A stretch of DNA of 25,351 bases from a virus, in the IMG/VR virus record IMGVR_UViG_3300042924_002906, positions 1 through 25,351 of that record; one strand, given 5' to 3'. The notes below the pieces were generated by a model that was given only the letters and a program-made list of their open reading frames with translations, was not told the origin of the DNA and made no database searches. Numbering within the stretch: position 1 is the first letter of the stretch; each line of letters opens with the position of its first letter. This document shows, one piece after another, positions 1,054 to 10,004 of the stretch. Position numbers and translations under genes: made by a program.

Positions 1054-1575
1054 TTACGACGCCGAGTCGGTGAACTCGATCTCGAGGTCGGCAGTACCGA
1101 CCGCAGAGGAACCGCTGTGGAACAACTGGAAGCCTTCCACGGCACGGCAGGTCACCGGCTCGACGTTGGTGTCGCCGTACCCGGCGTTCCAGATCTCGGC
1201 GAACGGCACGAGCGTCAGCCAGTTGGCCTGCGTGGTACCGCCCACCACCGGCTCCTCGTTCACGAACAGGAAGCGCCGGAAGATGTCCGAGCCGGTCGTG
1301 GTCTGGTTGGTGCCGCAAGTGGTTTGCGCCGCGAGCGCCGACGAGGTGGTGTCGTGCCTGACCGGCGTCACCGCCGTGCCGCCAGACGCCGCCGTGATTC
1401 GGCGAACCTGACCAGTCGTGAGCACGCCGGTCACTGCCGCCACGCCGTTGTTGAACCAGTAGGCGCGATACACACGAATGACGCGGGCGCTGCCGGTCGC
1501 GTTGAACACGTTGAGCATGTCTTTGCTCGATGCGTAGGCGATAGCGCCGCCCGTTGCTCTCCAAGTCGCTGCCAT
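1054..1575 (-). CDS. Beta-rich phage protein, paralogue of the leftmost gene
   Basis: A 173-residue Thr/Ala/Gly/Val-rich protein without a membrane segment. The ATG is preceded by GGAG six bases upstream (GGAGTCTGATATG). Two blocks match the protein at 1-872 in the same order: residues 58-80 (RRITAASGGTAVTPV, then HDTT) and 125-150 (FAEIW, NVEP, RAVEG). A GG-TAVTPV-HDTT style motif occurs, from memory, in several families of uncharacterised phage virion proteins, but I cannot name the family. It may be a minor head or tail component. It begins one base after the stop of the upstream gene, consistent with co-translation. Confidence 0.75.
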   Translation of the reverse strand: MAATWRATGGAIAYASSKDMLNVFNATGSARVIRVYRAYWFNNGVAAVTGVLTTGQVRRITAASGGTAVTPVRHDTTSSALAAQTTCGTNQTTTGSDIFRRFLFVNEEPVVGGTTQANWLTLVPFAEIWNAGYGDTNVEPVTCRAVEGFQLFHSGSSAVGTADLEIEFTDSAS

Positions 1576-1576
1576 A

Positions 1577-1873
1577 TCAGACTCCTACCATGACTTTGCC
1601 GGTGCCTTGCGTGGCACTGTATACCGCGATATCGCCGCTGCCGTCCATCTGCGGACCTGCAGCCCACTGCTTGACCTTGCCCTCGCGCAGCGCCGTCACA
1701 CTGGCGTCGAGGTCGTCCCGAGTGTCGCCGGGCATCAGCCCCAAGCGCCGCCCGGCCTGTATCTTGAGCATGAAGTCCACGCACCGCTTCACCGCCCACT
1801 CAGGGACAGGCGACTCGACCCGCAGCAGCCACGATCCGAGGGCCGGTCGCCACTCCATCGCAGGCTGTCTCAT
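1577..1873 (-). CDS. Hypothetical phage protein
   Basis: A 98-residue protein. Its ATG overlaps the stop of the preceding 48-residue gene (ATGA), which fixes the start. The first half contains WLLRVESPVPEWAVKRCVDF, an amphipathic helical stretch with Trp and Cys. The C-terminus is Gly/Val-rich (GTGKVMVGV) and looks beta-stranded. I see no transmembrane segment, metal-binding cluster or catalytic motif. It lies directly upstream of the beta-rich protein at 1054-1575. Function unknown; the overlap chain is the main reason to accept it as a gene. Confidence 0.65.
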   Translation of the reverse strand: MRQPAMEWRPALGSWLLRVESPVPEWAVKRCVDFMLKIQAGRRLGLMPGDTRDDLDASVTALREGKVKQWAAGPQMDGSGDIAVYSATQGTGKVMVGV

Positions 1874-2016
1874 TTACGCTTTAACTCGGTCTTGACGGAC
1901 TCGCGAAACGCCTTCGCGGTCGGCGCACCCTTGCTGCCGGGCTTGCGCATCTTCTCGCCGGAACCGGCCTTGATGCGCTCGCGCTTGGCGTGGATGTTCG
2001 CGTACAGTCCAGGCAT
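1870..2016 (-). CDS. Short basic phage protein (KRERIKAGSGEKMRKPG type)
   Basis: A 48-residue protein beginning MPGLYANIHAKRERIKAG and followed by SGEKMRKPGSKGAPTAKAF. It is strongly basic (many Lys and Arg). From memory, the block YANIHAKRxRI-AGSGEKMRKPGSKGAPTA occurs almost unchanged in many uncharacterised proteins of podoviruses and other tailed phages, so it is a real gene despite its size. No function is established that I know of. Its charge suggests nucleic-acid or virion association, which is inference. Its stop TGA overlaps the start ATG of the next gene (ATGA at 1870-1873). Confidence 0.8.
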   Translation of the reverse strand: MPGLYANIHAKRERIKAGSGEKMRKPGSKGAPTAKAFRESVKTELKRK

Positions 2017-2025
2017 CTCGTTCCC

Positions 2026-2193
2026 TCACGCTGCTTCGGGCTTGCGCACCTTCGCGCCACGCACGAACTCGACCTCGACCTTCGGCGGGGGCGGCGGCTC
2101 ACAGTCGGGACACCGAACCCACCCGCCAGACGAATCGGCCACCCAGCCGCTGCTGTTGCAGTTGAGGCAAGGCTTCCGCTCAGTCTCGGTCAT
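2026..2193 (-). CDS. Small two-CxxC zinc-finger-like protein
   Basis: A 55-residue protein starting MTETERKPCLNCNSSGWV. Two CxxC pairs (CLNC and CPDC, about 22 residues apart) with Gly/Ser/Trp between them look like a DnaJ-type or rubredoxin-like zinc knuckle. A run of five prolines and a Lys/Arg-containing tail follow. Four cysteines in this spacing support zinc binding; the partner is unknown. The gene lies between the resolvase-like gene (21-nt gap) and the short basic protein (9-nt gap). I found it by reading the reverse frame from the ATG at 2193. Confidence 0.7.
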   Translation of the reverse strand: MTETERKPCLNCNSSGWVADSSGGWVRCPDCEPPPPPKVEVEFVRGAKVRKPEAA

Positions 2194-2214
2194 GCCCCAA
2201 GTCTAACCCCCCGG

Positions 2215-2538
2215 CTACCGCTGCGGCAACTCGCCACGGATCAGCGGCAGGGCGTCCTCCAATCGCATCACCACGAGCCACCCCTTCCCGTCACCCCGGC
2301 AGGCGACCACCGGGATGTCGCCGGGGCCGGATGCACGGACGGCCTGCTCGACCCATTCGTGGACGGCGATGCCCTTCCGGCGCTTGACCTCCCACCGGAA
2401 CTGGCCGGTCGTGATGTCGTCGCCGCCGTCACGGGCCTGCCCGATGTTGCGCTTGACCGCCCAGCCGAGTTGGTCGCTCAGGATCTGTGCCAACTCGCGC
2501 TCACCGGCTGCGCCCTTAAGTCTCTGACTTGCGCCCAT
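2215..2538 (-). CDS. PDDEXK-type nuclease, Holliday-junction-resolvase-like
   Basis: A 107-residue protein that fits the small phage/archaeal Hjc-like PDDEXK nuclease pattern. An N-terminal KGAAGERELA helix carries the conserved Glu. QARDGGDDI follows and supplies the catalytic Asp. WEVKRRKG supplies the E-x-K pair. A helix with HEWVEQA and a closing strand (GWLVVMRLED) complete the domain. Proteins of this type cut branched DNA (Holliday junctions, replication forks) in the host cytoplasm with Mg2+. The ATG at 2538 has a strong GAGGAGG site upstream and overlaps the HTH gene by 23 nt. It would process intermediates made by the ERF/YqaJ/NinB genes on the other strand. The nuclease fold is well supported; resolvase specificity is an inference. 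Confidence 0.75.
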   Translation of the reverse strand: MGASQRLKGAAGERELAQILSDQLGWAVKRNIGQARDGGDDITTGQFRWEVKRRKGIAVHEWVEQAVRASGPGDIPVVACRGDGKGWLVVMRLEDALPLIRGELPQR

Positions 2539-2728
2539 CGGGCCTCCTCGGTTGGTGATAGGCCTTCAGCCCGCGATTGATTATGCCGTGGATGGTGCTC
2601 ACCGGAACCCCGAGCTCACGGGCGAGTTCCTTGTTCGTCGGCAGCATCGCACGAGCCGCCTTCACATCGAGAACCCGTTGGTACTGCGCCATCGTCACCG
2701 ATGGGGGCCTGCCTGCACTGCGCTTCAC
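2516..2728 (-). CDS. Small helix-turn-helix DNA-binding protein
   Basis: A 70-residue basic protein. Residues 32-55 (NKELARELGVPVSTIHGIIN) form a classic helix-turn-helix with the Gly turn, and N- and C-terminal basic tails (GRPPSVTM; QPRRPDGRK) would contact the backbone. The start is GTG at 2728, overlapping the stop of the small membrane protein gene (GTGA) and preceded by GGAGGTGA. It is probably a site-specific DNA-binding or regulatory protein; the target is not evident. Its last 23 nt overlap the start of the resolvase-like gene, so the two are probably made together. Confidence 0.7.
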   Translation of the reverse strand: MKRSAGRPPSVTMAQYQRVLDVKAARAMLPTNKELARELGVPVSTIHGIINRGLKAYHQPRRPDGRKSET

Positions 2729-2835
2729 GACATCACCTCCACGAGCATGGCGAAAAACAGCAGGATGCCGAGGAGCACGATCGCAGCGTCCCGCAGCAGC
2801 CGGATCAGCGGGCCGAAGTCAGGAGGGCGTTCCAT
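2725..2835 (-). CDS. 36-residue single-span membrane protein
   Basis: The frame opens with an ATG at 2835 (GGAGG six bases upstream) and stops at 2725. The product starts MERPPDFGPLIRLLRDA. A hydrophobic helix of about 18 residues (AIVLLGILLFFAMLVEV) follows, enough for one membrane span. Positive residues before the span suggest a cytoplasmic N-terminus. The gene nests partly in the 3' end of the upstream gene (17-nt overlap) and its stop overlaps the GTG of the HTH gene. A holin-type, exclusion or regulatory microprotein is possible; nothing in the sequence decides. Confidence 0.6.
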   Translation of the reverse strand: MERPPDFGPLIRLLRDAAIVLLGILLFFAMLVEVMS

Positions 2836-2980
2836 CACCATCCTCCACGGCATCCTCGACGCGCCCGATAAGCTCCTCGAGCTCCTCGTCGCCGATCTGC
2901 TCCTTACCGTTGACGGCGCACCAGGCGGGGTCCATCCGGCGCAGCGCGTCGCGGACCTCGGTCAGCAGGGCGAGGCTCAT
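2819..2980 (-). CDS. Small acidic hypothetical protein
   Basis: A 53-residue protein starting MSLALLTEVRDALRRMD, with a strongly acidic C-terminal half (EELEELIGRVEDAVEDGDG). I chose the ATG at 2980 because it overlaps the upstream stop (ATGA) and has a GAGGGGGAG site before it. An in-frame ATG further upstream would start inside the upstream gene and lacks such a site. It is predicted to be helical, with no known motif. Its 3' end overlaps the next gene, a 36-residue membrane protein, by 17 nt. Confidence 0.6.
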   Translation of the reverse strand: MSLALLTEVRDALRRMDPAWCAVNGKEQIGDEELEELIGRVEDAVEDGDGTPS

Positions 2981-3201
2981 TTGCTCCCCCTCGCACGGAT
3001 GGCTTGGGCGCATTCAAAAGCGGTTCCGCTCTCAAGCCCCGCCCGAGAATCCCACACGATTTCGCACACCTTCTCACACGCCTCCCGCTCGGCCTCGACT
3101 GCTTTGGCTGCATACGCCTTCATCTGCGCGGCGGTGTAAACGCTGCCGAGTGTGCGGCTTTGGTACTTGACCCCGGTTGCAATAGGTTTAGGCAGTCTCA
3201 T
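2977..3201 (-). CDS. Hypothetical protein of the AEREAC/IRARG family, copy 2
   Basis: A 74-residue protein. The ATG at 3201 overlaps the upstream stop and follows a GAGGGGGAG ribosome site. Its second half (AAKAVEAEREACEKVCE, then ECAQAIRARGSK) matches the C-terminal half of the product of the gene just upstream (EAEREACARVCE, CARAIRARGSE). These sequences recur in small uncharacterised proteins of many phages, from memory. The paired Cys residues (EAC-KVC) are conserved between the two copies. No function is known to me. The DNA around its stop is nearly identical to that around the stop of the upstream gene. Confidence 0.7.
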   Translation of the reverse strand: MRLPKPIATGVKYQSRTLGSVYTAAQMKAYAAKAVEAEREACEKVCEIVWDSRAGLESGTAFECAQAIRARGSK

Positions 3202-3449
3202 TCGCTCCCCCTCGCACGGATGGCTCGGGCGCAATCTTTGGTAGCGTCTTTCTCGCGGTCAGCCCAATCGTAGCCTTCATACTCTGCCTCACACACCCGC
3301 GCACACGCCTCCCGCTCGGCCTCTGCGACGAGGGCGGCGAAGCGCATAAGCCCCCGCTGTAAAATCCAGCGTGTCGTGCCGGAGTCGAATATATAGTCCA
3401 TCCGTACTCCAGCCTCCCGCGCCATGTGCATGATTTCCTCGCGTGTCAT
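3198..3449 (-). CDS. Hypothetical protein of the AEREAC/IRARG family, copy 1
   Basis: An 83-residue protein starting MTREEIMHMAREAG and ending in CARAIRARGSE. A middle helix contains LVAEAEREACARVCE. This arrangement (MTREEI-x-MAREAG start, AEREAC helix, CA-x-AIRARG end) is common among short uncharacterised phage proteins that I recall from many genomes. The next gene downstream is a shorter paralogue sharing the C-terminal half. The start overlaps the upstream stop (ATGA), with GGAAGGAGG upstream. No enzymatic motif is visible. Confidence 0.75.
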   Translation of the reverse strand: MTREEIMHMAREAGVRMDYIFDSGTTRWILQRGLMRFAALVAEAEREACARVCEAEYEGYDWADREKDATKDCARAIRARGSE

Positions 3450-3814
3450 TTCCCGTCCTCCTTCCTGATCCCGTGGTGCCGCTCGGCGTCACGCCACGCT
3501 TCGCAATAAATCACCTCCCCGCCGTCGCTTTCGCTTGCCTTGTACGCCTCGGCTACCTGCTCCCTCGTCGCAGGCTCCCGCTTGGCCCATCCCCTCTCGC
3601 CCAGTACCTCAGCCAACACATCGGCCTCGGCCTCGCCTGCCGCGATGCGGCTGTAGGCGGTTTCCAACCAATGCGACCCGATGACATAACCGGGGTGTAC
3701 CGGCTCCGCAAGCGCGGCGTCGAGGGCGTCGAGGGCGGCAAAGAGTTTCTCGCCCGAGACCAATGCAGCCCGTATCTGCTCGGCATCGGCGCGGGGCAGG
3801 GTGATGTGGCTCAC
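3446..3814 (-). CDS. Hypothetical protein, mostly helical
   Basis: A 122-residue protein that starts with GTG (SHITLPRADAEQIRAAL) inside the repeated GGTGAAGCCGTGAGC junction. Long Ala/Glu-rich helices dominate, with a central VHPGYVIGSHWLETAYSRI segment and a charged C-terminus (ERHHGIRKEDGK). I see no signal peptide, membrane helix or catalytic motif. It overlaps the upstream and downstream genes by 4 nt each. Function unknown. Confidence 0.65.
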   Translation of the reverse strand: MSHITLPRADAEQIRAALVSGEKLFAALDALDAALAEPVHPGYVIGSHWLETAYSRIAAGEAEADVLAEVLGERGWAKREPATREQVAEAYKASESDGGEVIYCEAWRDAERHHGIRKEDGK

Positions 3815-4071
3815 GGCTTCACCTTCCGATGTCGCTTGATTGCGGCGATGGCGCGGTCGGCAGAGATCTCGGCCTCGCGCAACACATCAAGGGCTTCCCA
3901 CAGGTGCCACAGCGCATCGTCCACCGTGCTCTTCTTCGGCACCCATCCCCACACGGCATCGACGGACGCAATCGTCCGCTCCCGGCACATCGTCGCCCAT
4001 GCATCGGCATACTCCGGCGCAGGCTTGTGCGCCTCCAGCGCCGCCCACATCTCGTCAAGTTTCGTGCTCAC
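3811..4071 (-). CDS. Hypothetical protein, paralogue of the gene at 4373-4636
   Basis: An 86-residue protein with a GTG start. The first 33 residues (STKLDEMWAALEAHKPAPEY, then ADAWATMCRERT) are almost identical to those of the protein at 4373-4636. After that the two diverge completely until a shared AI-AIK...VKP ending. The N-terminal segment is therefore a duplicated module with a swapped C-terminal part. The rest is Trp- and Ala-rich and helical. It is linked to both neighbours by the GGTGAAGCCGTGAGC junction. No function can be assigned. Confidence 0.65.
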   Translation of the reverse strand: MSTKLDEMWAALEAHKPAPEYADAWATMCRERTIASVDAVWGWVPKKSTVDDALWHLWEALDVLREAEISADRAIAAIKRHRKVKP

Positions 4072-4084
4072 GGCTTCACCCCCT
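3974..4084. repeat. Imperfect direct repeat, copy 1 (with 4539-4649)
   Basis: About 111 nt starting at gtccgctcccggcacatcgt recur 565 nt away with few mismatches. The repeat covers the shared N-terminal 33 codons of two paralogous genes plus the upstream stop/RBS junction. It points to recent duplication and is a possible site for loss of the intervening gene by recombination. Confidence 0.7.
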
Positions 4085-4376
4085 CTGCTTTGGCGATGGC
4101 GGCGCTGGCTGCTTTATACGCGCTGGAGCCGTAGCCAAGTGCGTGCCAAGTTTTGTGTTCGGATTCCGAAAGGTTGCGTCTGTCCTCTCTCAAAAACCAA
4201 TACTCCGCGAGGTCAGCCGATTGCCGCAACGCCTCCAACAGTTCCGCGTTCACGCTGTGCAGGCGGCGCAGTTCGGCGGCGGCTCGGACTTGCGTTGCTA
4301 CCCGTGCGCCCTGCGTATACCGCTCGGCCTCAAGCAATCGTCCGGCCATCAACAACGCTTCTGGCATCTTGCTCAC
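4068..4376 (-). CDS. Hypothetical helical protein
   Basis: A 102-residue protein with a GTG start (SKMPEALLMAGRLLEAERY). It is predicted to be largely alpha-helical with coiled-coil-like heptads around residues 30-60 (AAAELRRLHSVNAELLEAL). It ends with AAIAKAEGVKP, the same VKP ending found in three neighbours because their stop codons lie in the same junction sequence. It sits between the two paralogues that share the STKL-x-EMWAALEAH module. No known domain recognised. Confidence 0.65.
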   Translation of the reverse strand: MSKMPEALLMAGRLLEAERYTQGARVATQVRAAAELRRLHSVNAELLEALRQSADLAEYWFLREDRRNLSESEHKTWHALGYGSSAYKAASAAIAKAEGVKP

Positions 4377-4636
4377 GGCTTCACCTCCTTGATCGCGTCG
4401 ATGGCCTGTTGGGCGTAGCGGTCAGCCTTCGCCGCATCTGTCGCCCCTAGCGCCCACGCCGCATCCCATGCCGCGCTCGCCCACAAGCCAAACGGCAGTT
4501 CGGGCGCTGCGCGATACGCCGCCCACGCCGCCGCCGATGTCCGCTCCCGGCACATCGTCGCCCACGCCTCGGCATACTCTGGCGCAGGCTTGTGCGCCTC
4601 CAACGCCGCCCACATCTCGGCCAGTTTCGTGCTCAC
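4373..4636 (-). CDS. Hypothetical protein with duplicated STKL-EMWAALEAH module
   Basis: An 87-residue protein. I chose the GTG at 4636 rather than an upstream ATG because the GTG overlaps the previous stop (GTGA), lies in the repeated junction, and gives an N-terminus that aligns with the paralogue at 3811-4071 (31 of the first 33 residues identical by eye). The C-terminal half is Ala/Trp-rich (AAWAAYRAAPELPFGLWASA) and differs from the paralogue. Helical, soluble, function unknown. Confidence 0.65.
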   Translation of the reverse strand: MSTKLAEMWAALEAHKPAPEYAEAWATMCRERTSAAAWAAYRAAPELPFGLWASAAWDAAWALGATDAAKADRYAQQAIDAIKEVKP

Positions 4637-4649
4637 GGCTTCACCCCCT
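4539..4649. repeat. Imperfect direct repeat, copy 2 (with 3974-4084)
   Basis: Second copy of the 111-nt repeat, covering the start of the gene at 4373-4636 and the end of the gene before it. The match includes the GCTCACGGCTTCACC junction (plus-strand reading), which also recurs at two further gene boundaries without the rest of the repeat. Confidence 0.7.
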
Positions 4650-4890
4650 TCGGTCCCGCACACTCACCCTTGAACATCGCGTGACACCGCCCGCCGCCGT
4701 CCAGGCACTTCGGGTACGCGCAGCCGGTGCGCGGCCCGCGCAGCTGCTCGAGCTCGGCCTCGAGGCGGTCGATGCGGGCCGAGTACGCCGCGCAGCGCAG
4801 CAGGGCGCTTTCGCATTCGCGACGCCATTCCTCCGGCGTGTGCTGCTGGGCCAGCCACGCCTTGTCCCACTCGTCGAGTTCGATGGTCAT
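4633..4890 (-). CDS. Coiled-coil protein with Cys-rich tail
   Basis: An 85-residue protein starting MTIELDEWDKAWLAQQH at the ATG that overlaps the upstream stop (ATGA). A short coiled coil (SARIDRLEAELEQLRG) is followed by a cluster of Cys and His (CAYPKC, GGGRCHAMFKGEC) that could bind a metal. An upstream in-frame ATG at 4947 would lie inside the preceding gene and is less likely. It sits just downstream of the HTH protein gene and begins the run of small genes joined by repeated junctions. Function unknown. Confidence 0.65.
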   Translation of the reverse strand: MTIELDEWDKAWLAQQHTPEEWRRECESALLRCAAYSARIDRLEAELEQLRGPRTGCAYPKCLDGGGRCHAMFKGECAGPKGVKP

Positions 4891-5462
4891 GCCTGGTACC
4901 TCCGCACCAATGCCTCGACGGCAACGGCGTTCCGCGCCGTCACCCATTCCCGATTCAGCTGCAGCGCCCGCGTCTTGCGCCCGAGCTCGAGCGCGATGCG
5001 GCCCTTGGTAAAGCCCTCATCGAGCAGCCACGCAATCCGCTCCCATGTCCGCTTGGCCGGGACCAGCGCAGCGTCGCCCGCGCAGGCCGGTGTCACCGCC
5101 AAGATCCGGCGCTCGGTCCGCGCACGGATGCGCATCTTGCGGCCGGTGCGGATGTCGGCGATGACCGACAGCCCCACATCCGACGCCGCCGCTACCATCC
5201 GGCGACCGACGCCCCTGCGGGACAGCGCGAGGATGTGCCGCCGCGCCGGGGCAGCGTCCACGATGCCGTTCCAGTCGCCCGCCGCCCGGGCTGCAGCACG
5301 TCCGCGCTCGTAGTCGCTGTTCGACCGGCGGCAGTGGAAGCACCGGCACCCTGCGAGGTACCGCAACCGATGCCCGTGCGGGCGGTCGGCGGCGAGCTCC
5401 GCGACCGGGCGCAGGCCGCGCTCAGACAGCGTGCGTCTCCCATCCGATTCGTCGAGTTCCAT
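4887..5462 (-). CDS. HTH-type DNA-binding protein with N-terminal Cys cluster
   Basis: A 191-residue, very basic protein. Residues about 28-50 (HGHRLRYLAGCRCFHCRRSN) carry a CxCxxC-type cluster with His, like the N-terminal Cys motif of phage proteins beginning HG-x-R-x-RY-x-x-GCRC. Residues about 75-110 contain a helix-turn-helix-like part (LSRRGVGRRMVAAASDVG then LSVIADIRTG) followed by an arginine-rich arm. A second HTH-like stretch (AWLLDEGFTKGRIALELG) lies near the C-terminus. It is probably a transcription regulator or nucleoid-type protein. It has its own promoter with a palindromic operator just upstream and a strong AGGAG site, so autoregulation is plausible but not shown. Confidence 0.7.
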   Translation of the reverse strand: MELDESDGRRTLSERGLRPVAELAADRPHGHRLRYLAGCRCFHCRRSNSDYERGRAAARAAGDWNGIVDAAPARRHILALSRRGVGRRMVAAASDVGLSVIADIRTGRKMRIRARTERRILAVTPACAGDAALVPAKRTWERIAWLLDEGFTKGRIALELGRKTRALQLNREWVTARNAVAVEALVRRYQA

Positions 5463-5485
5463 GTCCGTCTCCTGTGTGTGTCTAC

Positions 5486-5519
5486 GGAATCAGGTTAACT
5501 CAATTTAAATTGATGTCAA
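5486..5519 (-). promoter_or_regulatory. Sigma70-like promoter for the 4887-5462 gene
   Basis: On the minus strand a perfect -35 box TTGACA (5519-5514) is followed by a 16-nt spacer and a weak -10 box TAACCT (5497-5492). The spacer is AT-rich in an otherwise GC-rich genome and holds a perfect palindrome. The expected transcript start is near 5485, leaving a short leader with a CACACACAGGAG ribosome site before the ATG at 5462. It would drive the small-gene operon leftwards from this point. Confidence 0.55.
5500..5513. promoter_or_regulatory. Palindromic operator TCAATTTAAATTGA
   Basis: A perfect 14-bp inverted repeat, TCAATTTAAATTGA, fills most of the spacer between the -35 and -10 boxes of the 5486-5519 promoter. 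A dimeric repressor bound here would block RNA polymerase. Candidate binders are the HTH protein it precedes (4887-5462), the Cro-like protein (6814-7053) or a repressor outside the window. Binding is inferred only from symmetry and position. Confidence 0.5.
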
Positions 5520-5520
5520 C

Positions 5521-5634
5521 TTATTTTCGCCTCGCCTCCTCGACGCAGATCCAGACGATGCGGATGACCGCCCCGGCCAGCATCGCAAGCCAGACCGCAG
5601 CCAGTACGCCGAGCGCGATGTCGAGGTTAGACAC
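5521..5634 (-). CDS. 37-residue single-span membrane protein
   Basis: A GTG at 5634 begins a 37-residue product (SNLDIALGVLAAVWLAMLAG, then AVIRIVWICVEEARRK). It has one strong hydrophobic span and a positively charged C-terminus, so the C-terminus is likely cytoplasmic. The start overlaps the stop of the upstream gene by 8 nt and has GGGAG about nine bases upstream. A longer in-frame version starting at 5820 would lie wholly within the neighbouring gene and reads as a shadow, so I reject it. Function unknown. Confidence 0.55.
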   Translation of the reverse strand: MSNLDIALGVLAAVWLAMLAGAVIRIVWICVEEARRK

Positions 5635-6151
5635 GGGACCGCTCCCGCAGGCGACCGAGGCCGCGTTCGCCGAACAGGTGCCGGACCATCCCGGCAAGGT
5701 GCGGGTCGCCGATGACTTCCTTCGGGTCGGCATCGCGCAGCGCAGCTGCAGCCGCATCGCGCAACCGGTCCCAGGCATCCCGGTCGGCTTCGCGGATGGT
5801 GAGGCGGGCGAGGTAGGCATCGCACAACCGCAGCCGGTTGATGGGTGTCGGCTCCTGCTTGCCCCACACTCGAGCAGACCACTCGTCCTGTTCTGCGTGA
5901 CGGGCGATGTCGGCGGCTTTCTGCTTGTCGGTCTTCTCGACCTTCTCGCCGGGGCGAGGCGCGGCTTTCTTGATCTCGAACAGCCCTTGCCACTGATTCG
6001 CGATGGACTGGTCCACCACCGCCGCTTGGTCAGCGCCGAAGCGGGCCAGTTTCATCTTCATCGCGTGTTCGCTGATCGGCTTGATGGGCTTGCGGATGGC
6101 CTTCCTAAAGGCGACCCATCTCTCCCACGATGCTTCATCGAGTTCGTTCAT
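5627..6151 (-). CDS. Phage replication-protein-like (C-terminal-domain-type) protein
   Basis: A 174-residue protein. Its N-terminal 65 residues (WERWVAFRKAIRKPIKPISE, then MKLARFGADQAAVVDQSIAN-QWQGLFE) resemble the C-terminal segment of phage replication initiators of the O/DnaT-like group, where a W-x-x-F-x-x-x-R start and a QSI-x-x-x-WQGLFE end are typical. The N-terminal winged-helix part of such proteins is absent, so this could be a stand-alone version of that segment. The rest is charged and helical. A strong AGGAG with a CA-rich leader precedes the ATG. A helicase-loading or primosome-like role is an inference; no helicase is seen in the window. Confidence 0.5.
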   Translation of the reverse strand: MNELDEASWERWVAFRKAIRKPIKPISEHAMKMKLARFGADQAAVVDQSIANQWQGLFEIKKAAPRPGEKVEKTDKQKAADIARHAEQDEWSARVWGKQEPTPINRLRLCDAYLARLTIREADRDAWDRLRDAAAAALRDADPKEVIGDPHLAGMVRHLFGERGLGRLRERSRV

Positions 6152-6369
6152 GTGTGTGCTCCTGTGTGTGTGCGTTCGCAGTACGTCCGCATGAGTTCGG
6201 CGTGGTCGTCCAGGTACTGGTTTATCGACCTTGTGCCGCGCCGATTTTTGGTGTTGTTCGCGATCAGTTCGTAGGCGATGCGCTTCGGACTCTGGTACCT
6301 CTTGGGCTTCACACCCATGGCCTTGCAGAAGTCTCGAATCAGCCTATCCCTGTCTAGGTCTATATCCAT
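6148..6369 (-). CDS. Hypothetical protein
   Basis: A 73-residue protein starting MDIDLDRDRLIRDFCKAM if the ATG at 6369 is used; an ATG four codons earlier (6381) is also possible. I prefer 6369 because GGGGAAAGAG lies directly before it. The body is basic and helical (KPKRYQSPKRIAYELIAN) with a polar C-terminus rich in Arg, His and Thr, and may bind nucleic acid. Its stop overlaps the ATG of the replication-like gene (ATGA). No family recognised. Confidence 0.6.
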   Translation of the reverse strand: MDIDLDRDRLIRDFCKAMGVKPKRYQSPKRIAYELIANNTKNRRGTRSINQYLDDHAELMRTYCERTHTGAHT

Positions 6370-6469
6370 CTCTTTCCCCATATGCTCGGAAGCCCGGGAA
6401 TGACCCCCCTACCCCCCTTAAATCGGAAGGTAGCGAGGTCATGCCTAAATGCCCGTATAGCCACGGTGT

Positions 6470-6817
6470 TTAGACCCGCCGAGCTTTGGTAAGCGATGCC
6501 CGGCCCGGTCTTGTGACCGGCCCTTCGCCGACAGATTGAACCCATGTCGAGGGGTTGGGAGATGGGTGATTGACAGACCTGTTCCCCCGGTCTATCGTCA
6601 CGGCACCTCGATACGCATCACGAGAGTAGGGCCCTCCCCCCGCCCGCGTCAAGCCCCCGAAAGGGGGTTTGTCGTTTCTGGCCTCCTCCACGGCCTCGCA
6701 GATCACCGCCGCCACGCCGCGCACCCACCGTCTACGCCGAGCCATCACCCGCGCCACCTCTCGGCGACTCTCCAGGTGAGCCCGGTAGTAGGCCCGATGG
6801 TACGCAGCGCGGCTCAC
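6470..6817 (-). CDS. Small basic protein; C-terminal half dubious
   Basis: The frame runs 115 codons from an ATG at 6817 that overlaps the stop of the Cro-like gene (ATGA). The first 50 residues (MSRAAYHRAYYRAHLESRRE, then VARVMARRRR) look like a real small basic protein with the HRAYYRAH pattern seen near small phage nucleases and DNA-binding proteins. After KPPFGGL, which is encoded by a strong hairpin, the sequence becomes Pro/Gly/Arg/Ser-rich without visible structure and may be read-through rather than selected protein. A truncated gene or an unselected C-terminal extension are both possible. Confidence 0.5.
   Translation of the reverse strand: MSRAAYHRAYYRAHLESRREVARVMARRRRWVRGVAAVICEAVEEARNDKPPFGGLTRAGGGPYSRDAYRGAVTIDRGNRSVNHPSPNPSTWVQSVGEGPVTRPGRASLTKARRV
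6651..6670. other. GC-rich hairpin with GAAA loop
   Basis: AAGCCCCC-GAAA-GGGGGTTT forms an eight-pair stem (one G-T pair) closed by a GNRA tetraloop, followed on the plus strand by T-rich sequence (TTTGTCGTTT). It looks like an intrinsic terminator for plus-strand reading, yet it lies inside the minus-strand frame at 6470-6817. No plus-strand gene ends here, so its role is unclear; it may be an RNA-processing or attenuation element of the minus transcript. Confidence 0.35.
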
Positions 6818-7053
6818 GCGGCCTCGGGCTTCGGACGCAGACCGGCCTCGATCTTGCGAATCAGCCGCTTCATGCTGCGCGACTGCTCGCCGCTCTTGAG
6901 CTCGGCGACCACCTCGCCCGCGAGCTCGCGCAAGCGGACGTGCTCAGGCACACCCACACGCGCCCACTTCGACACCGCCGCACGGGTCACCCCGTACTGG
7001 CGGGCTACGGCACTCTGGTTGCCGTACTTCTTGACCAACTCCTCGATGGACAT
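6814..7053 (-). CDS. Cro/CI-like helix-turn-helix regulator
   Basis: A 79-residue protein starting MSIEELVKKYGNQSAVARQY. Residues about 10-32 (GNQSAVARQYGVTRAAVSKW) form a Cro-type helix-turn-helix with the usual Gln, Ala, Gly-Val and Trp positions. A VPEHVRLRELAGEVV helix of the kind seen in Cro/YdaS-like proteins follows. I chose the ATG at 7053 because CGGAGG lies just upstream; the ATG at 7083 has no ribosome site. It faces the rightward promoter at 7111 and is the first gene of the leftward operon, the typical position of a lambdoid early repressor. It probably binds the divergent control region; that is inference. Confidence 0.8.
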   Translation of the reverse strand: MSIEELVKKYGNQSAVARQYGVTRAAVSKWARVGVPEHVRLRELAGEVVAELKSGEQSRSMKRLIRKIEAGLRPKPEAA

Positions 7054-7107
7054 GGAACCTCCGTTGTTGACTCCCGTAAGCATGGCCTAAAAAAAAGTTG
7101 CGTACAA

Positions 7108-7830: not shown

Positions 7831-7961
7831 TGGAAGACGACGATACCTGGTGGCACCAGCTCGACCTCGAGATGCAGGAGCGCGAGGAAGAGGAACGCAT
7901 CGCAGCCTGCAACACCGCTTTATCCCTACTGACACAGGAACACACGCATGAACCAGTCTGA
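7830..7961 (+). CDS. 43-residue acidic hypothetical protein
   Basis: The ATG at 7830 shares its A with the stop of the membrane protein gene (TGATG). The product begins MEDDDTWWHQLDLEMQEREE, is strongly acidic with a Glu-rich helix, and ends TQEHTHEPV. It overlaps the start of the ERF gene by 14 nt. It is too short for family assignment. Translational coupling on both sides supports it as a real gene. Confidence 0.55.
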   Translation: MEDDDTWWHQLDLEMQEREEEERIAACNTALSLLTQEHTHEPV

Positions 7962-8493
7962 ATCCATCGCCGCCCTCGCCGCCGCCCTCTCGAAGGCGCA
8001 GGCCGACATCACCGGAGCCTTGAAGGACAGCGCCAACCCGTTCTTCAAGTCCAAGTACGCGGACCTCGCGTCCTGCTGGGACGCCTGCCGCAAGCAGCTC
8101 GCCGCCAACGACCTCGCCGTCATCCAGACGACCGAGATCGGCGATACCGGGGCCATCCTCGTGACCACCCTCGCGCACTCCTCGGGCGAGTGGATGCGCG
8201 GGTACCTGCCCATCCTGACCAAGGACGCCGGTCCGCAGGGGCAGGGCTCCGGCATCACCTACGCCCGCCGCTACGCCCTCGCCGCCATCGTCGGCCTCGC
8301 CCAGATCGACGACGACGCCGAGGCAGCGCAGGCCCGGGGCAAGCCCGAGGCCAAGCCCGACCCCGACCTCGCCAAGAAGGTGGCCGAGTGCCAGACCCTC
8401 GCCGACCTCACCGCCCTGTTCAAGGGGTTGACCGAGGCGCAGCGTCAGGCGTCCTCCGGCATCTTCGCCGCCCGCAAGAAGGAGCTCGGCTGA
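7948..8493 (+). CDS. erf: ERF-family single-strand annealing protein
   Basis: A 181-residue protein with the ERF-type signature. The N-terminal KAQADITGALKDSANPFFKS and KYADLASCWDACRKQLAAND correspond to the conserved core helix and KYADL motif. Strands with ILVTTLAHSSGEWM follow, then the Gly/Gln segment PQGQGSGITYARRYALAAIV before the acidic DDDAEAA. ERF proteins (P22 Erf type) are ring-forming annealases that pair complementary single strands in phage recombination and circularisation. A variable linker and a short C-terminal helical part follow. The gene is followed at once by a YqaJ exonuclease, the usual partner. Start is the ATG with an ACAGGAA leader. Confidence 0.9.
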   Translation: MNQSESIAALAAALSKAQADITGALKDSANPFFKSKYADLASCWDACRKQLAANDLAVIQTTEIGDTGAILVTTLAHSSGEWMRGYLPILTKDAGPQGQGSGITYARRYALAAIVGLAQIDDDAEAAQARGKPEAKPDPDLAKKVAECQTLADLTALFKGLTEAQRQASSGIFAARKKELG

Positions 8494-9101
8494 TGGAGCA
8501 ACGCACCCCCGAATGGTTCGCCAAGCGGCTGGGGCTCGTGACCGCCAGCCGGATAGCCGACGTCATGGCCAAGACCAAGACCGGCGCGTCGGCCTCTCGC
8601 AGCGGGTACATGGCCGAACTCCTGACGGAACGCCTCACGGGACAGCCCACGGAGGGCTATAAGAGCCCCGCCATGGACAGGGGCATCGAGCTAGAGCCCG
8701 TCGCCAGAGCCGCCTACGAGGCGCGAGAGGGCGTTCTGGTGGATGAGGTGGACTTCGTGCGCCACCCGCTCCTCGAGGCCGGGGCGTCCCCGGACGGGCT
8801 GGTCGGGGAGGACGGCTGCATCGAGATCAAGTGTCCGAACACCTCCACGATGCTCGAGTACATCGAGGACCGCTCCGTCCCCCGCAAGTACCTCCTGCAG
8901 ATGCAGTGGCAACTTGCATGCACAGGTCGCAACTGGTGCGACTTCGTGGCCTTCGACCCCCGCCTGCCGGAGCATCTGCGGCTGCTCGTCATCCGGGTGC
9001 CGCGAGACGAGTCCGTCATCGCCGAGATCGCGGGCGAGGTCGGGCGGTTCCTGACCGAGCTGCGGGACCGGGTCGAGCGCCTGCAGGCGGTGCGCCTGTG
9101 A
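8493..9101 (+). CDS. YqaJ-family viral recombinase (exonuclease)
   Basis: A 202-residue protein starting MEQRTPEWFAKRLGLVTASR, the typical Q-R-x-x-EW-x-x-R-x-G-x-x-T-x-S opening of the YqaJ/lambda-exonuclease family. Conserved parts follow: RGIELEPVARAAYE (helix with Glu), ASPDGLV (metal-binding Asp near residue 100), IEIKCP (Glu and Lys near 110-112) and YLLQMQWQLACTG (Gln-rich helix). The family degrades one DNA strand 5'-3' with Mg2+ and loads an annealase. The start shares its A with the ERF stop (TGATG), and pairing with ERF supports a Red-like two-component system. All catalytic motifs look intact. Confidence 0.9.
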   Translation: MEQRTPEWFAKRLGLVTASRIADVMAKTKTGASASRSGYMAELLTERLTGQPTEGYKSPAMDRGIELEPVARAAYEAREGVLVDEVDFVRHPLLEAGASPDGLVGEDGCIEIKCPNTSTMLEYIEDRSVPRKYLLQMQWQLACTGRNWCDFVAFDPRLPEHLRLLVIRVPRDESVIAEIAGEVGRFLTELRDRVERLQAVRL

Positions 9102-9590: not shown

Positions 9591-10004
9591 ATGAACCGCA
9601 TCTTCCCCAAAGGCACCACCCCTGACCAGATCGCTTCGGCGATCTCGGTCATGGTGCGGTGGCTGGACCAGACCAAGTCCTGGAAGGTCACGCTCGAGGA
9701 GTTCAAGCCCCGGCGCTCGGACATGCAGAACGCTTTCCTGTGGGGCGTCGTCTACCCGTCCATCCTCGAGGGTGGCGGGGAGGCGCTGGCAGGCTGGCAG
9801 AAGGACGACCTGCACGAGTTCATGCTGGGCGAGCACTTCGGCTGGGAAACGCTCACGCTCGGCGGGAAGACCGTCCACAAGCCGGTGCGCCGCTCGTCCC
9901 GACTCAACAAGCAGGACTTCTCCGACTACCTCGAGTTCCTATCCCGCCGCGCCGCAGAGCTCGGCATCGTGATACCCGAACCGTCCTATGGAGACACACC
10001 ATGA
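9591..10004 (+). CDS. ninB: NinB-family recombination protein
   Basis: A 137-residue protein close to the usual NinB length. Typical features are KSWKVTLEEFKPRRSDMQNA (the R-x-x-x-QN motif that opens the family core), LWGVVYPSI, DDLHEFMLGEHFG, and an RRSSRLNKQDFSDYLEFLSR helix near the end. Lambda NinB (Orf) binds single-stranded DNA and SSB and can replace RecFOR in starting recombination. Finding it next to an SSB-tail protein and ERF/YqaJ fits that role. The stop overlaps the following ATG (ATGA). Confidence 0.88.
   Translation: MNRIFPKGTTPDQIASAISVMVRWLDQTKSWKVTLEEFKPRRSDMQNAFLWGVVYPSILEGGGEALAGWQKDDLHEFMLGEHFGWETLTLGGKTVHKPVRRSSRLNKQDFSDYLEFLSRRAAELGIVIPEPSYGDTP

Follow-up and report, generated by a model that had tools for sequence, protein, structure and literature searches.

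Why should one short sequence stand at four consecutive gene boundaries of a virus genome? The question is raised by IMG/VR record IMGVR_UViG_3300042924_002906, whose 25,351 bases (the whole stretch analyzed, referred to below as the window) carry minus-strand genes for tail proteins and a major head protein and, on the same strand, a run of small genes (A to E) joined by a repeated junction of stop codon, ribosome-binding site (RBS) and start codon. Comparison with related viral contigs reveals that the junction is shared, that the order of the genes it joins is shuffled, that alignment breakpoints are enriched at it, and that whole gene cassettes are gained and lost between its copies. We consider it likely that the locus is a nin-like region of an uncultured tailed phage, composed of interchangeable small-gene cassettes, in which the junction would be both a coupled start signal and shared DNA for gene exchange.

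A repeated junction between small genes

The junction contains the 15-mer GGTGAAGCCGTGAGC, which the first-pass annotation had placed at four consecutive gene boundaries, and exact minus-strand copies are indeed present at all four (4631-4645, 4371-4385, 4066-4080 and 3809-3823). These are the only matches in the window when one mismatch is allowed, a threshold at which the reversed 15-mer, used as a control, gives none in the window; at up to three mismatches, the window holds seven matches, whereas 100 shuffles averaged 1.83 and never gave more than 5. The TGA stop and the GTG start overlap as GTGA at 4636-4633, 4376-4373, 4071-4068 and 3814-3811, and the in-frame reading of the 15-mer is V-K-P-stop. 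The open reading frame (ORF) list and the sequence confirm both the overlaps and the VKP ends of the upstream proteins, as annotated.

Across relatives, the conserved unit extends to about 18 bp, GGAGGTGAAGCCGTGAGC. We take the GGAGGTGA part of the wider consensus to be a near-full Shine-Dalgarno (SD) sequence that pairs with the 16S rRNA 3' end; it is replaced by GGGGGTGA or GAAGGTGA in three of the four window copies. On the minus strand, copy 1 joins genes A and B as GGGGGTGAAGCCGTGAGC (4631-4648), copy 2 joins B and C as an exact GGAGGTGAAGCCGTGAGC that reads AAGGAGGTGA with the AA before it (4371-4388), copy 3 joins C and D, again as GGGGGTGAAGCCGTGAGC (4066-4083), and copy 4 joins D and E as GAAGGTGAAGCCGTGAGC (3809-3826).

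Gene A (4633-4890, 85 amino acids [aa]), the first of the array, has an end of class E4. By ORF and family grouping, gene B (4373-4636, 87 aa) belongs to cassette family S3 (MSTKLAEMWAALEAHKP...); gene C (4068-4376, 102 aa) is a member of family S2 (MSKMPEALLMAG...AAIAKAEGVKP), gene D (3811-4071, 86 aa) is a second S3 cassette and a paralog of B, and gene E (3446-3814, 122 aa) comes from family S1 (MSHITLPRADAEQ...), the usual last gene of runs. The starts of B and D with their junctions form a 111-bp direct repeat of 95% identity (4539-4649 and 3974-4084, minus strand) that contains the A/B and C/D copies, so that two of the four junction copies share an origin. The annotated description of unrelated genes joined by one junction consequently does not hold for the paralogs B and D; it stands in part, with C and E coming from other families. 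No tandem repeats were found at positions 1500-6600 of the window.

Shuffled cassettes in related viral contigs

IMG/VR was scanned with the 15-mer, the 18-mer and two extended 23-mers, and by two protein-based scans; most contigs were retrieved through the junction itself, and contig numbers are lower bounds (at least 120 stretches in the 15-mer and 18-mer scans). Junctions were called at up to two mismatches, and at least 397 qualified. Once overlapping loci of one contig had been merged by hand, there were at least 387, with both reading frames open, in at least 214 non-redundant viral contigs, and up to seven per related contig. At least 138 cassettes, of median length 82.5 aa, have a junction at both ends; they lie in at least 77 contigs. 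Gene families were defined as single-linkage blastp groups. The alignment set comprised the 92 of the 214 contigs that carry a cassette from any of 14 named families; removal of contigs covered over more than 70% of their length at 95% identity or more left 72 representatives.

The 193 junctions of these representatives follow 28 classes of upstream end and form 89 distinct end-by-start pairs, with end class E2 paired with 15 start classes and E3 with 14. The 29 runs of at least three junctions show 27 orders. The window has S3-S2-S3-S1, and other contigs have S4-S3-S57-S10-S1 (L103), S3-S10-S2-S4-S6 (L306), S2-S15-S2-S4-S6 after a separate S13 junction (L126) or S10-S2-S1 (L194). The ends of the arrays vary little: 42 of 45 S1 occurrences and 8 of 8 S6 occurrences close a run, in a tally that treats runs cut by the contig end as ended, and E4 (A-type) is first in 14 of 14. 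The first-pass annotation had held that a fixed gene order with diverged junctions in relatives would speak against a modular join; we see the opposite, the junction being kept and the order changing.

An all-against-all blastn of the 72 representatives, covering the arrays plus 2 kb, places 778 of 5,411 alignment ends, which are not independent events, within 15 bp of a junction center, compared with 115.5 under uniformity (6.7-fold). Right alignment ends, where the upstream side is shared, fall on or just past the final bases of the 18-mer, and left ends, where the downstream side is shared, mostly start on its first base. Counted by site, an alignment end lies no more than 12 bp from 157 of 191 junctions, versus 171 of 1,368 random points.

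In six empty/occupied pairs and three replacements, contigs differ by whole cassettes lying between junctions, the surrounding DNA being 91-99% identical. The search took in all 92 contigs, and therefore some pairs repeat one event in near relatives: L061 and L173, each compared with L194, share one insert and account for two of the six. The clearest pair is L317/L174, in which a single 284-bp cassette lies between junction copies in L174 only, and the aligned flanks, of 391 and 350 bp, are 98% and 99% identical. Compared with the window, L157 has three extra cassettes at the D/E junction, beside flanks that are 93% identical across 200 bp and 92% identical across 125 bp, and L103 carries S57-S10 at the place occupied in the window by S2-S3 (C and D). 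The changed orders and the whole cassettes inserted, missing or replaced between junctions support the modular join that had been proposed.

Family S4, represented in at least 14 contigs including L014, L103, L119 and L126, has a cassette about 25 residues long (MSALERLLAWVWRRFMAWGSKEVKP and similar sequences) that resembles a small membrane or amphipathic peptide. Variant junctions of the form GGAGGC(C/G)AAGCCGTGA (KEAKP) occur in L006, L088, L073, L125 and L138 with partly different cassettes, for example SDTPRTD.

Conservation of the junction and competing explanations

With one junction taken per pair type (n=88), conservation is 1.3-2.0 bits at all 18 positions and below 0.7 bits outside them. 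The values within the 18-mer are biased because junctions were called at up to two mismatches; the flanks and a protein-based check are free of this bias. In that check, relatives of gene B were found by protein patterns, and GGTGAAGCCGTGA is exact at the start in 15 of 20 scored loci (several near-identical), while 2 of 5 scored relatives of gene E have the exact junction; loci whose match starts mid-gene were left out (1 of 21 for gene B, namely L301, and 3 of 8 for gene E). Coupled boundaries within the arrays are distributed bimodally, 190 having 0-2 mismatches, 20 having 3-5 and 95 having 6 or more.

The lysine codon of the junction is AAG in all 84 of the Lys-bearing pair types (of 89), and AAA does not occur once among the 193 junctions; within cassettes, AAA makes up 220 of 520 lysine codons (42%). 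AAA alone costs one mismatch and hence would be detected in junction calling. The corresponding test gives 9e-21, with independence assumed. Conservation of a C-terminal VKP in the protein was rejected as the main cause, since the lysine codon is fixed at the DNA level. On these counts, the junction is conserved as DNA and not just for the sake of protein or translation.

The window would thus represent one state of a nin-like accessory region made of interchangeable small-gene cassettes. Each cassette would begin with GTGAGC and end with GAGGTGAAGCCGTGA or a near variant, so that adjacent cassettes recreate the same 18-bp junction. Being a stop/SD/start overlap, the junction would let an inserted gene keep its start signal, and translation is probably coupled across it. 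Being also a shared stretch of DNA where unrelated genes can join, it would serve as the place at which whole genes are gained, lost, doubled or swapped, a pattern that the comparison of contigs shows. Arrays would keep largely fixed ends, with A-type ends first and ITLPRA (S1) or DRELLEL (S6) genes last. We infer homologous exchange at the 18-mer, with Erf as the enzyme; the window encodes Erf, YqaJ and NinB, and this phage annealing system, Erf with the YqaJ exonuclease and NinB, may act on such short homology. In one study, Erf of phage D3 recombined DNA of 100% and 78% identity about as efficiently as lambda Red, and its authors attribute the joining of regions with only short homology to Rad52-like recombinases (PMC3945230).

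Several observations weigh against the exchange of cassettes at a shared junction. Nothing like GGTGAAGCCGTGA is carried by 5 of the 20 gene-B relatives, and 3 of the 5 scored gene-E relatives are without the junction (best matches with 6-7 mismatches). The codon argument is weakened because 17 window genes seldom use AAA (22 of 208), and against that yardstick, on which its strength depends, the same result would be about 1e-4. Cassette order is non-random, with 89 pairs where shuffles average 110.1 and never fall below 98, and partly kept, with a mutual information of 1.60 versus a shuffled mean of 1.16. Two of the window copies belong to the single 111-bp duplication, and the L336/L294 breakpoint could equally sit in the shared start of S2 genes. 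As for the mechanism, 18 bp is short for efficient homologous exchange, and Erf occurs in only 7 of the 72 representatives including the window (YqaJ in 15 and NinB in 14), many of these contigs being fragments.

Two further points of this kind favor an alternative in which the junction is only an optimal signal for coupled translation: illegitimate recombination would strike anywhere, selection would keep the clean joins, and the junction would travel with its cassettes, held by expression. Among other coupled boundaries of the same contigs, 196 of 344 also have an alignment end within 12 bp, and selection for intact genes therefore explains part of the breakpoint signal. Moreover, the 18-mer is found at 81 loci (fetched at up to 8 kb each) of unrelated genomes from scattered taxa in a search of bacteria and archaea, 71 of them at stop/start overlaps of open frames, so that the sequence, which includes an SD core, can arise for translation alone. 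At up to two mismatches, these loci hold one junction in 80 cases and two in one, and none of them matched proteins from 13 cassette families at E 1e-3; what is distinctive here is the repeated use of the junction between interchangeable genes. Translation alone also leaves several facts aside. Positions without a clear translational role are held as well (the AGCC spacer, AAG rather than AAA, and AGC as codon 2), and alignment ends are also marked by shared in-gene sequences, EAEREA and AALAEP. Outside the arrays, 440 of 523 SD-bearing coupled boundaries differ from the junction at 7 or more of the 18 bases (differences of 0-2 being excluded by construction), which indicates that translation does not demand this sequence. 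We regard this alternative as rather unlikely, and as the strongest of the rivals.

Local tandem duplication followed by divergence, with the junction as the end that copies arising in this lineage have in common, would agree with the 111-bp repeat of 95% identity that holds the A/B and C/D copies and with the paralogy of B and D, and it is the likely origin of the B/D pair. It is nevertheless improbable for the array, given that C and E are of families other than that of B and D, that the junction follows 28 end classes in 89 end-by-start pairs across contigs, and that the flanks of the 18-mer stay below 0.7 bits; the genes of other families and the 89 pairs contradict pure local duplication as a full account. 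An integron-type system, in which a dedicated site-specific recombinase acts on the junction, would suit ORFs packed end to end in arrays and their precise gain and loss, but no inverted repeat of at least 14 nt coincides with a junction at positions 1500-6600 of the window, and no such integrase was matched among the subset of window proteins scanned. On both grounds it was rejected, and we give it very little credence. Assembly could in principle have mis-joined strains of one phage at the repeat, the array-bearing relatives being environmental viral contigs, many of them short. Such chimeras were rejected, however, since the same gene orders recur in separate metagenome records (L137/L186, L153/L126, L131/L160 and L063/L145); usual assembly k-mers are also longer than an 18-bp repeat, and an artifact of this kind is hardly credible.

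Further linkers and neighboring genes

Besides the 18-bp junction, a second kind of junction, CCATCCGTGCGAGGGGGAGC[A/G]AATGA, joins genes downstream of the array. On the minus strand of the window it occurs as CCATCCGTGCGAGGGGGAGCGAATGA (AIRARGSE-stop/ATG) at 3198-3223 and as CCATCCGTGCGAGGGGGAGCAAATGA (AIRARGSK-stop/ATG) at 2977-3002, and it recurs in 69 viral-contig stretches. At up to four mismatches, it was found in 65 distinct contexts on 55 contigs with several gene ends, and it leads to 25 different starts, compared over the first eight residues, some of them alike. Within genes, the linker GAGGCCGAGCGGGAGGC (EAEREA) lies at 3307-3323 (minus strand) in the gene at 3198-3449, with another copy at 3080-3096. 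By rough short-peptide classes, it connects 23 head classes with 20 tail classes in 38 pairs and 93 contexts. Alignment ends recur both at EAEREA and, within S1 genes, after the shared sequence AALAEP.

In a separate observation, LLEALTDLLGWQTLAPDDVVAAARAAI runs on to a VKP end in L174 and to AIRARGSK in L366, which would fit a swap of the tail at the shared GCCATC.

A broader reading, which we hold tentatively and consider somewhat doubtful, is that of a combinatorial gene-building region, where the 18-bp junction (J1), the 26-bp AIRARGSK-stop/ATG junction (J2), the in-gene EAEREA and AALAEP linkers and a phage annealing recombinase would keep genes and half-genes swappable, and the linkers would be kept because they keep the region evolvable. 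If this were true, new small proteins and operons could be assembled from a shared pool with frame and translation unbroken.

The plus strand of the early region encodes the Erf-type single-strand annealing recombinase, the candidate shuffling enzyme (7948-8493; PF04404, 2.8e-21), an adjoining YqaJ-type exonuclease (8490-9101; PF09588, 3.2e-26) and a NinB/Orf recombination mediator (9591-10004; phrog_72, 4.6e-12, without a Pfam match). On its minus strand, the array of genes A to E lies downstream of an O-like gene for replication initiation (5627-6151; phrog_678, 7.6e-12, with a family of unknown function scoring slightly above it at 1e-12) and upstream of other small genes and of a gene for a RusA-like/PDDEXK resolvase (2215-2538; phrog_244, 2.4e-21; PF24608, 1.3e-7). 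A minus-strand gene at 6814-7083 encodes a Cro/YdaS-like small DNA-binding protein (PHROG transcription regulators, with Pfam P22_Cro just under the cut-off), and its place near the recombination genes suggests a control region of the lysis-lysogeny type.

Among the matches shown, the long tail protein has 28-37% identity to proteins of Xanthomonas CP2-like and Pelagibacter HTVC010P-like phages, which we take to be podoviruses. Compared with isolated phages, the DNA of window positions 2700-6400, the protein of gene B, an S14 protein and an S1 protein gave no match, and an S2 protein gave one partial match covering 28% of the query.

Relation to known systems

The nin region of lambda and P22 consists of small overlapping genes after the replication genes, includes a resolvase gene, and is variable between relatives. 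Here, too, small genes with 4-bp overlaps follow an O-like gene (5627-6151) in a block with a resolvase (2215-2538), and by position the array region is presumably nin-like. Unlike those of the nin region, the overlaps share a single 18-bp junction, and searches of PHROG and Pfam with cassettes A to E and the gene at 3198-3449 gave no match. By these searches the small genes show no nin-gene homology, and the NinB/Orf homolog lies outside the array (9591-10004, plus strand). No late-gene control (Q-type) gene was found among the subset of downstream window proteins scanned.

Conserved boundary (linker) sequences were reportedly proposed for the mosaicism of lambdoid phages by Susskind and Botstein in 1978 and by Clark et al. 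in 2001. There, as here, a short conserved sequence edges exchangeable modules and is proposed as a site of homologous exchange. The 18-bp block, with flanks below 0.7 bits, marks module boundaries, stands beside unrelated modules (89 pairs, and 27 orders in 29 runs) and gathers breakpoints (778 of 5,411 versus 115.5), other gene boundaries being enriched too. Unlike the lambdoid linkers, one near-identical 18-bp linker is here reused in one array and doubles as stop, RBS and start.

According to a study of mycobacteriophages, linkers cannot be found at most mosaic boundaries, and in Brujita and Island3 a gene was gained at a shared 60-bp gene 3' end (PMC3029335). As in our arrays, relatives differ by a small whole gene flanked by two copies of one gene end; the gain described there is one event, with homology of about 50-60 bp, whereas here an 18-bp linker recurs along the array and in many contigs.

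Start-Associated Sequences (SAS) of Cluster K mycobacteriophages have the 13-bp consensus GGGATAGGAGCCC, 3-7 bp before mostly ATG starts, and their authors also raise homologous recombination (PMC3203893). Like the junction, they are repeated short elements with an SD core before the starts of several gene families, and have extra conserved bases unpaired with the 16S rRNA. They are described there in gaps of more than 50 bp, about half of them with inverted repeats, whereas our junction has a different sequence, GTG starts and 4-bp overlaps, and ends the upstream gene. The T4-type PeSL cassettes, promoter plus stem-loop elements (Arbiol et al. 2010; Comeau et al. 2014; as described in PMC4503421), likewise involve a repeated short sequence, said to mediate gene shuffling between related phages. 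Unlike PeSLs, the element here is coding, lies inside overlapping genes and would work at the level of translation, and no hairpin or inverted-repeat arm was found at it in the window. Nor does it resemble the attC-like sites of integrons in the window, where no junction carries an inverted repeat, and no IntI-type tyrosine recombinase was found among the subset of window proteins scanned, from a record that may be a fragment.

A literature search, with most subscription journals outside its coverage, found no report of this junction or of these arrays. Whether phage mosaics arise through homologous exchange, with conserved linkers as its sites, or through illegitimate recombination followed by selection is an old question. 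Our contigs form a natural phage set with one short linker at successive joins of an array and matched empty and occupied sites, and therefore make the two models directly testable. They offer a rare visible case of a proposed, seldom seen route of virus gene mixing, a simple picture of one DNA piece as both translation signal and recombination site, and a source of small unknown phage genes. Among known systems, as far as the sources consulted describe them, the gene gain of Island3 and Brujita is the nearest documented event, and the Cluster K SAS and the PeSLs of T4 are the nearest repeated elements. We regard the arrays, set in a nin-like region, as an unusually clear variant on the model of conserved boundary sequences; the variant is new, and the idea is old.

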